DNA of 64,000 nucleotides, taken from positions 1 to 64,000 of the forward strand of contig MPMI01000002.1 in NCBI GenBank assembly GCA_002238415.1. The letters run 5' to 3'. This stretch comes from Desulfurellaceae bacterium bin18 (GTDB taxonomy: Bacteria > Desulfobacterota > Binatia > Bin18). The first letter of the stretch is position 1; each line of letters begins with the position of its first letter. A program made the translations under genes and the position numbers. The notes below the pieces were generated by a model, which was not told the DNA's origin, made no database searches, and saw nothing but the letters and a program-made list of their open reading frames with translations. Of this stretch, positions 3,938 through 5,695 are shown piece after piece.

Positions 3938-5077
3938 TCACAAGCCATATGGCAGATCCTTTGTCGTACAGATTGTAAACACCCGGTCGCCTCGACGAAT
4001 ACGGTACGGCTTCTTCGCTACAGGACTGACGATGTAGTTGTCACCCTGTGGATATAGACCACGGAAGGCCGCGATAGCGGAGATATTCAGTTTATCGGGA
4101 TTGATCTTGCACTCGGCCAGATCGACACGATTTCGCTCGCGACGGATGACGAAATCTACTTCACGACCGGACTTGTCTTGCCAATAGAAAATGTCCTCGT
4201 CCGCGTAATGACAGCGCAGGGCGTCCAGCACCAGATGTTCCCACAACACGCCGCGGTCCTCGTCTCTGATGCTGTCCCAGCCCTTCTCGAAGGTGACAAA
4301 TCCGGTATCGAAAGCATAACACTTGGGACGGCTGACGATCTCGCGTTTTCCGCCGCTATGAAAGGGCCGCAGCAGGTACACCGCATGAGCAATCTGCATG
4401 GCCTCGATATGCGCCTTAACCGTCGGACGGCTCAGTTGGCTCAGATTCGCCAGTTGGCTGTAATCGAGCTGTCCACCGCTCTGGCGTAACAACAGCCGGA
4501 ACAGCGATAAGAATCCCTGGCGGTTGCGGATGCCGAACAGTTCCAGGATATCCCGTGCATAGAAGCTATCGATCCATTCGCTGAAAAACGCGCTGTCTTT
4601 GCGTTCCGCCAGTAGCGGCTCGGGAAGCCCACCGTGTAACAGACGGTGATCAAGAAGCGGTGTGCCGAAGGGATCGGCGCACTCCTCCCACAGCACCGGA
4701 CAGAGGTGAACCGCCTGCTTACGTCCGGTGAGCGAATCTCGGAACTTGCGAGTGGCGGTTAAGGTTGAGGAGCCGGTAGCCAGAATCTTGAGCTGCGGAT
4801 ACTCGTCGGCGGCAATCTTCAGCAAGCGGCTGGGGTCTTCCAGACGGTGTACCTCATCGAATACCACTACCGTTCCCGGTGTCTGGCCGTCGAGAAACAG
4901 TTCCGGGTCATCCAGCGCCCGCAGGCTGGAAGGCAGATCGCAGTTCATATACACTGCGTCCGGCAGCATCCGAGCTAGGCTTGTCTTACCCACCCGACGA
5001 ACGCCGGAGAGCCAGACGACCGACCGGCGGGACCATGCCTGCTGAACCCGGCCTAGCCACAGAGAGCGCTTAAACAT
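3938..5077 (-). CDS. AAA ATPase with DUF4143 domain (ATP-binding protein)
   Basis: 379-residue member of the AAA_14/DUF4143 family, widespread in bacteria and archaea and of unknown cellular role. Walker A is GVRRVGKTSLAR (about residues 25-36), Walker B is TVVVFDEVHRLED, and sensor-1-like ILATGSS follows. The C-terminal half carries the DUF4143 winged region (YSQLANLSQLSRPTVKAHIEAM) and a restriction-endonuclease-like tail with EVDFVIRRE and DLAECK, matching the D...ExK arrangement of that fold. Length is near the family norm. There is no Shine-Dalgarno sequence: the ATG at 5077 lies three bases past a 16-bp-arm palindrome, suggesting a leaderless, self-controlled transcript (inference). Confidence 0.9.
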   Translation of the reverse strand: MFKRSLWLGRVQQAWSRRSVVWLSGVRRVGKTSLARMLPDAVYMNCDLPSSLRALDDPELFLDGQTPGTVVVFDEVHRLEDPSRLLKIAADEYPQLKILATGSSTLTATRKFRDSLTGRKQAVHLCPVLWEECADPFGTPLLDHRLLHGGLPEPLLAERKDSAFFSEWIDSFYARDILELFGIRNRQGFLSLFRLLLRQSGGQLDYSQLANLSQLSRPTVKAHIEAMQIAHAVYLLRPFHSGGKREIVSRPKCYAFDTGFVTFEKGWDSIRDEDRGVLWEHLVLDALRCHYADEDIFYWQDKSGREVDFVIRRERNRVDLAECKINPDKLNISAIAAFRGLYPQGDNYIVSPVAKKPYRIRRGDRVFTICTTKDLPYGL

Positions 5078-5080
5078 ATT

Positions 5081-5116
5081 CGTACTTTACATATAGACGA
5101 CTATATGTAAAGTACG
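5081..5116 (-). promoter_or_regulatory. Perfect 16-bp-arm palindrome overlapping likely promoter of the DUF4143 ATPase
   Basis: CGTACTTTACATATAG at 5081-5096, spacer ACGA, then CTATATGTAAAGTACG at 5101-5116: exact inverted repeat. On the minus strand it contains TTTACA and, 16 bp on, TAAAGT at -12 to -7 relative to the A of the ATPase ATG. A promoter would therefore place the transcript start at or next to the start codon, and a dimeric repressor on the palindrome would cover both elements. The palindrome is seen; promoter and operator roles are inferred. Confidence 0.6.
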
Positions 5117-5309: not shown

Positions 5310-5546
5310 TTACGCGGCTTGCTTCTTCAGTGCGGCCTGGACTGCCTCACTGTCGGGAAAGACGCCGGTTTCGAGCTTGGAGTAAATCTTTGTCCCATTG
5401 ACAATGACCTCGAACCGACCGTCGTCATACGGAACCAGGGTCAGACCCTGAACCTGTTGTTTATTGTGGGTCAATACATATTCCGCCAAACTGACGGCTT
5501 CCGGCTCATAACTTCACGCTGCGCAATATTCAATCCGAATATCCAT
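5310..5546 (-). CDS. SelW-like (Rdx/SelT/SelW/SelH family) protein, probable selenoprotein with in-frame TGA
   Basis: Reading the minus strand from ATG at 5546 to TAA at 5310-5312 gives 78 residues with one TGA at codon 11 (5514-5516). Around it the peptide is MDIRIEYCAA-U-SYEPEAV, so the TGA falls exactly where the Rdx family has its second redox residue (CxxC or CxxU). After the TGA the frame continues with family-typical sequence: LAEYVL, QGLTLVPYDDGRFEVIVNG, KIYSKLETGVFPDSEAV. The family has a thioredoxin-like fold and is thought to act in thiol/selenol redox or glutathione-linked reactions. GAGGAGG sits 7 nt before the ATG. ORF callers that stop at TGA miss it. It is divergent from the CoA-transferase gene. 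A single-base error (TGC read as TGA) or gene decay are the alternatives. The bacterial SECIS must lie just 3' of 5514; I could not fold it with confidence. Confidence 0.8.
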
Positions 5547-5695
5547 AACTGCCTCCTCACCTGTGATCCCTACCATACCGGGAAATCGTGCTCAGCGAAA
5601 TGCGCGACGCGATGCGGACTGACTTTGCTTTCTTGACCGGTGTGGTTTATGCTCCGGCCAAAGAATTGCAAATTCCTTTTGTTGAGGAGGGTTCT

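Follow-up and report, generated by a model that had tools for sequence, protein, structure and literature searches.

Reading frame, family and fold

The locus raises the question of whether a short redox gene interrupted by a TGA codon is broken or encodes a selenoprotein. We analyzed a window of 64,000 nt, meaning the whole stretch of DNA studied, and found on its minus strand a frame from ATG (5546-5544) to TAA (5312-5310) whose read-through translation has 78 residues and a single in-frame TGA, at codon 11; under the standard code it stops after 10 codons. The initial annotation had assigned this TGA to the second redox position in a SelW-like gene, and the sequence is exactly as it claimed. 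The read-through peptide is MDIRIEYCAAUSYEPEAVSLAEYVLTHNKQQVQGLTLVPYDDGRFEVIVNGTKIYSKLETGVFPDSEAVQAALKKQAA. From the sequence evidence set out below, we hold with very high confidence that the frame is a genuine SelW-like (Rdx) bacterial selenoprotein gene whose UGA is read as selenocysteine (Sec), and the seemingly broken redox gene is almost certainly intact. Genes of this kind are cut short or overlooked by automatic gene callers, and here a complete, conserved redox gene stands where annotation would leave a gap. The features of the locus and of related genes elsewhere in the genome (G000) are collected in Table 1.

Table 1. Positions of the SelW-like gene, its signals, its neighbours and the other in-frame-TGA genes of the genome
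Feature	Position	Strand	Basis
SelW-like (Rdx family, CxxU) candidate selenoprotein gene	5310..5546	-	read-through translation, Pfam Rdx, AlphaFold model
Predicted Sec codon UGA, codon 11, second position of C8-A-A-U11	5514..5516	-	sequence; TGA in 59 distinct relatives
Cys codon TGC, codon 8, first position of CxxU	5523..5525	-	sequence
Shine-Dalgarno-like GAGGAGG, 5 nt upstream of ATG	5552..5558	-	sequence
Bacterial SECIS-like hairpin CCGUCA-GUU-UGGCGG, 6 bp, 3-nt loop	5483..5497	-	folding, covariation, RNAalifold
Divergent acetyl-CoA hydrolase/transferase family gene, 435 residues	5696..7003	+	Pfam PF13336 7e-45; synteny
AAA_14/DUF4143 ATPase gene, between SelW gene and luciferase-like gene	3938-5077	-	
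Seven CMD/AhpD-like in-frame-TGA genes (L124-L130)	G000 contigs C60, C7, C77, C64, C36, C81, C20		
Five peroxiredoxin/AhpC-TSA in-frame-TGA genes (L136-L140)	G000 contigs C67, C36, C55, C31, C68:129044-129415		

Among the 256 in-frame-TGA read-through frames of the window, only four combine a redox-type motif with a SECIS-like hairpin, and the SelW-like gene is the one of those four with a clear protein family, the Pfam scan having covered, of the four, this frame alone. The initial annotation had also proposed that the family pattern continues past the TGA, which an alignment with Rdx bears out: Pfam Rdx (PF10262) spans residues 3-74 across the TGA (E 6e-18; 65.3 bits, cut-off 22.6), and TIGR02174 CXXU_selWTH scores above threshold (61 bits, cut-off 34.2). 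In a genome-wide search with the Rdx profile, this gene, with its one internal TGA, was the sole match. The first Cys of CxxU is invariant in an alignment of 19 relatives.

The structure was modelled with AlphaFold from the query and 19 relatives, with Cys written for Sec, and reached a pLDDT of 94.3. In the model, the C-A-A-U motif sits between strand 2-8 and helix 14-27, so that the CxxU follows the first beta strand. The best solved structures in Foldseek were the SelW-related 2obk, 2fa8 and 2p0g, with mouse SelW (2npb) and thioredoxins at lower ranks; at TM 0.91-0.95 to these crystal structures, the model has the SelW-type thioredoxin-like fold. The product would be a 78-residue protein with a C-A-A-U redox pair and, given its fold and motif, its most likely activity is that of a thiol/selenol oxidoreductase.

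A covarying hairpin downstream of the TGA

A SECIS-like hairpin had been anticipated downstream of the TGA, and we found one that covaries. Its loop begins 22 nt past the UGA and opens with the bases G and U. The bacterial SECIS model has a loop of 3-9 nt, a stem of 4-16 bp, a G within the first two loop positions, a spacing of 16-37 nt and an MFE of at most -7.5 (PMC13188914); the hairpin fits this model with borderline energy (-8.0 for a 51-nt fold; -7.2 kcal/mol for the bare hairpin, z -2.7). The support for a SECIS comes from the short helix taken by itself and from covariation, because the complete 71-nt stretch past the UGA folded no better than shuffles (z 0.49) and gave no signal. Random TGAs of the window are followed by a loose SECIS-like hairpin in 8.7% of cases and by its strict form in 0.6%.

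Relatives were gathered in a scan of 84,980 genomes, which yielded 64 loci, and in 58 related genomes, which yielded 27 Rdx matches. Across the 43 distinct relatives of the covariation set, 96.5% of cells were paired and covariation reached 0.519 compared to 0.218 in shuffles, with none of 500 shuffles as high on either measure. When partners were slid as a control, pairing fell to 20-43%, and RNAalifold, unprompted, recovered the same helix. The stem reads CCGUCA/UGGCGG or UGACGG in Binatia, CGGCCA/UGGCCG in other genomes of the class and CCGCGA/UCGCGG in Bacillales; these are one hairpin in different letters.

A very improbable alternative is that the hairpin arises as a side effect of the conserved protein sequence and that Sec is inserted via some other signal. 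Protein and RNA constraint do overlap here, the stem encoding a conserved A-V/A-S-L/F-A stretch, but the arms co-vary across clades (CG to GC, UA and AU), with double-sided, compensatory changes in 37 cells versus a shuffled mean of 10.4 (0/500 shuffles as high). Furthermore, the stem is lost in Cys homologues, which retain 1-3 of its six pairs, the close Cys homologue L067 included, and the serine codon of the loop is never TCN in 59 distinct rows. Of these rows, 47 have AGT as the loop codon and the rest GGT, AGG or GGC, and the loop G is therefore kept.

Selenocysteine machinery of the genome

The selA, selB and selC genes, whose absence the initial annotation would have taken as fatal to its reading, are all present in the genome (5.24 Mb in 83 contigs, 96% complete), as is selD. 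One tRNA-Sec scores above the Rfam gathering score (70.7 bits, C49:33213-33304) and was also called by ARAGORN, independently and with the anticodon TCA. About 240 bases beyond it, on the opposite strand, lies selA (C49:33547-34878, 602.8 bits), while selB is found on C15 (382 bits, cut-off 242) and selD on C78 (310 bits, cut-off 125). No in-frame stop was found inside selD. SelD (G000:C78:56985-57902) lies within a 759-residue open frame, which suggests fusion with another domain.

With this set, SelB carrying Sec-tRNA(Sec) would bind the hairpin just downstream in the mRNA and deliver Sec, so that the UGA would be translated rather than terminate. Among 58 related genomes, the window's own included, all 20 holders of a TGA-type Rdx gene have selA above cut-off and none of the 14 genomes lacking selA has one, a single genome of these (G022) having only a Cys-type Rdx; these are counts without a P value, and the relatives are not independent.

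Some bacteria are known to reassign UGA, a precedent for the UGA being read as another residue (tryptophan or cysteine), through a general code change or a suppressor tRNA. Such a reading is exceedingly unlikely here: the genome has a canonical tRNA-Sec, selA, selB and selD, the family has Cys or Sec at the TGA position, and a SECIS-like hairpin then follows. TGA also ends other genes of the genome (for example at L125, L129, L130 and L136), and a general reassignment was rejected.

Conservation of the TGA and selection past it

The machinery, the hairpin and the conservation of the TGA together support translation of the UGA as selenocysteine, as first proposed. At the homologous codon, we observed TGA in 59 distinct downstream sequences and Cys in 8, a proportion that is not an unbiased sample, as the relatives were gathered by peptide patterns. 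The holders of the TGA belong to Binatia, Poribacteria, Verrucomicrobia, Planctomycetes and many Bacillales, and the in-frame UGA aligns with the Cys or Sec of homologues, as expected of bacterial selenoproteins. The nearest relatives, at 85-92% protein identity, are metagenome-assembled genomes titled Candidatus Binatia, and the genes flanking the locus are 88-98% identical to theirs, which places the window in Binatia. After the TGA, dN is well below dS (0.035 vs 0.18 for relative L101; 0.24 vs 1.46 for relative L108), which indicates that the frame is under purifying selection past this codon.

A decayed Rdx pseudogene with a real stop, or a sequencing error for TGC or TGT, would account for the ten-codon standard frame and for the existence of Cys versions of the family, but has next to no probability, since independently assembled genomes from several phyla, with 59 distinct sequences, retain the TGA, which excludes the error and refutes the reading as a whole, the frame past it is under purifying selection and the downstream hairpin covaries.

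Some variants were seen among the relatives. In two Virgibacillus SelW-like genes (L078, L080) the TGA is kept and Arg replaces the first Cys (FRMQU), giving an RxxU form. A second, Cys-type Rdx paralogue occurs at L086 and L090 (genomes G005 and G003) and also at L088 and L089 (G007 and G012); the copies of G003 and G005 neighbour the YyaL-like gene and are some 4.4 kb away from the Sec-type gene, and the window's genome has no such paralogue. Additionally, the SelW genes of two public MAG contigs titled Klebsiella pneumoniae (L028) and Akkermansia muciniphila (L040) are Binatia-like and Verrucomicrobia-like, respectively, and these labels look wrong.

Gene neighbourhood

In relatives of the Binatia family, the same divergent CoA-transferase-family gene stands beside the TGA-type gene, and the acetyl-CoA hydrolase/transferase gene is followed by a DsbH/DUF255 (YyaL-like) gene. 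On the other side, a luciferase-like gene directly follows the SelW gene in several relatives, which have no AAA_14/DUF4143 gene at this place. A perfect 16-bp inverted repeat lies at 5081-5116, just before the latter gene.

Other candidate selenoproteins of the genome

Of the 16 CMD/AhpD-like genes, 7 contain an in-frame TGA, which in every case takes the place of the second Cys in CxxC, giving CxxU, and precedes a SECIS-like hairpin by 16-21 nt. Many same-family relatives likewise carry TGA-bearing CMD genes. Among the AhpC-TSA (peroxiredoxin-like) genes, 5 of 10 have an in-frame TGA, at the UxxC or TPG/TSG-U position (types UPFC, UPYC, TPGU and TSGU); in a simple scan, the one on C55 (L138) has a weak hairpin of -1.5 kcal/mol. 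No formate dehydrogenase alpha homologue of the genome has an in-frame stop. With these 12 genes from the two families checked and the SelW-like gene, the candidate selenoproteins number 13 in three families. Six genes define a genome as selenoprotein-rich (PMC5029168), and since the 13 candidates lie above this number, the genome is selenoprotein-rich on its candidate genes.

Most selenoprotein-rich bacteria, 78.3%, are anaerobes (PMC5029168). We give even odds to the proposal that richness in selenoproteins is an unrecognised trait of Binatia as a clade, in which CMD/AhpD-like (CxxU) and peroxiredoxin-like selenoproteins would be expanded besides SelW, in organisms thought largely aerobic. 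If true, this would run against the reported anaerobe trend, and the large Binatia selenoproteome to which the candidates point is relevant to the debate over how selenium use relates to oxygen. No description of selenoprotein richness in Binatia was found in the literature searched, whose coverage was incomplete; in the same incomplete literature no paper linked Binatota with selenoproteins, and the single hit for "selenocysteine" was a reference title.

Comparison with known selenoproteins

The initial annotation's description of an undescribed selenoprotein does not stand. The SELENOW-like proteins with CxxU form a prokaryotic selenoprotein family that is already established (PMC1794560) and listed with PF10262 among the known ones (PMC13188914 Table 1), and SelW-like proteins were the largest family, with 427 sequences, in the Global Ocean Sampling selenoproteome (PMC2398784 Table 2). 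Relative to the papers searched, only this locus and the occurrence of a SelW-like protein in Binatia appear new, extending the SELENOW-like family to an uncultured class.

Upon comparison with known systems, the locus shares with the SELENOW-like family (PF10262/TIGR02174) the N-terminal CxxU, the thioredoxin-like fold, the size, the Sec position and the downstream bacterial SECIS; the sole novelty relative to the literature searched is its host clade, Binatia, and the locus adjoins a CoA-transferase family gene. NCBIfam NF041051 SelTWH_Campy represents the same family, yet the query scores 66.6 bits (E 1.7e-18) against a cut-off of 88 and falls outside that Campylobacter-type equivalog. Finally, the Cys-type SelW-related proteins (PDB 2p0g, 2obk, 2fa8 and 3dex), at 23-34% identity, share the fold of the query and place a Cys pair where its redox pair lies, but carry Cys where the query has its predicted Sec.
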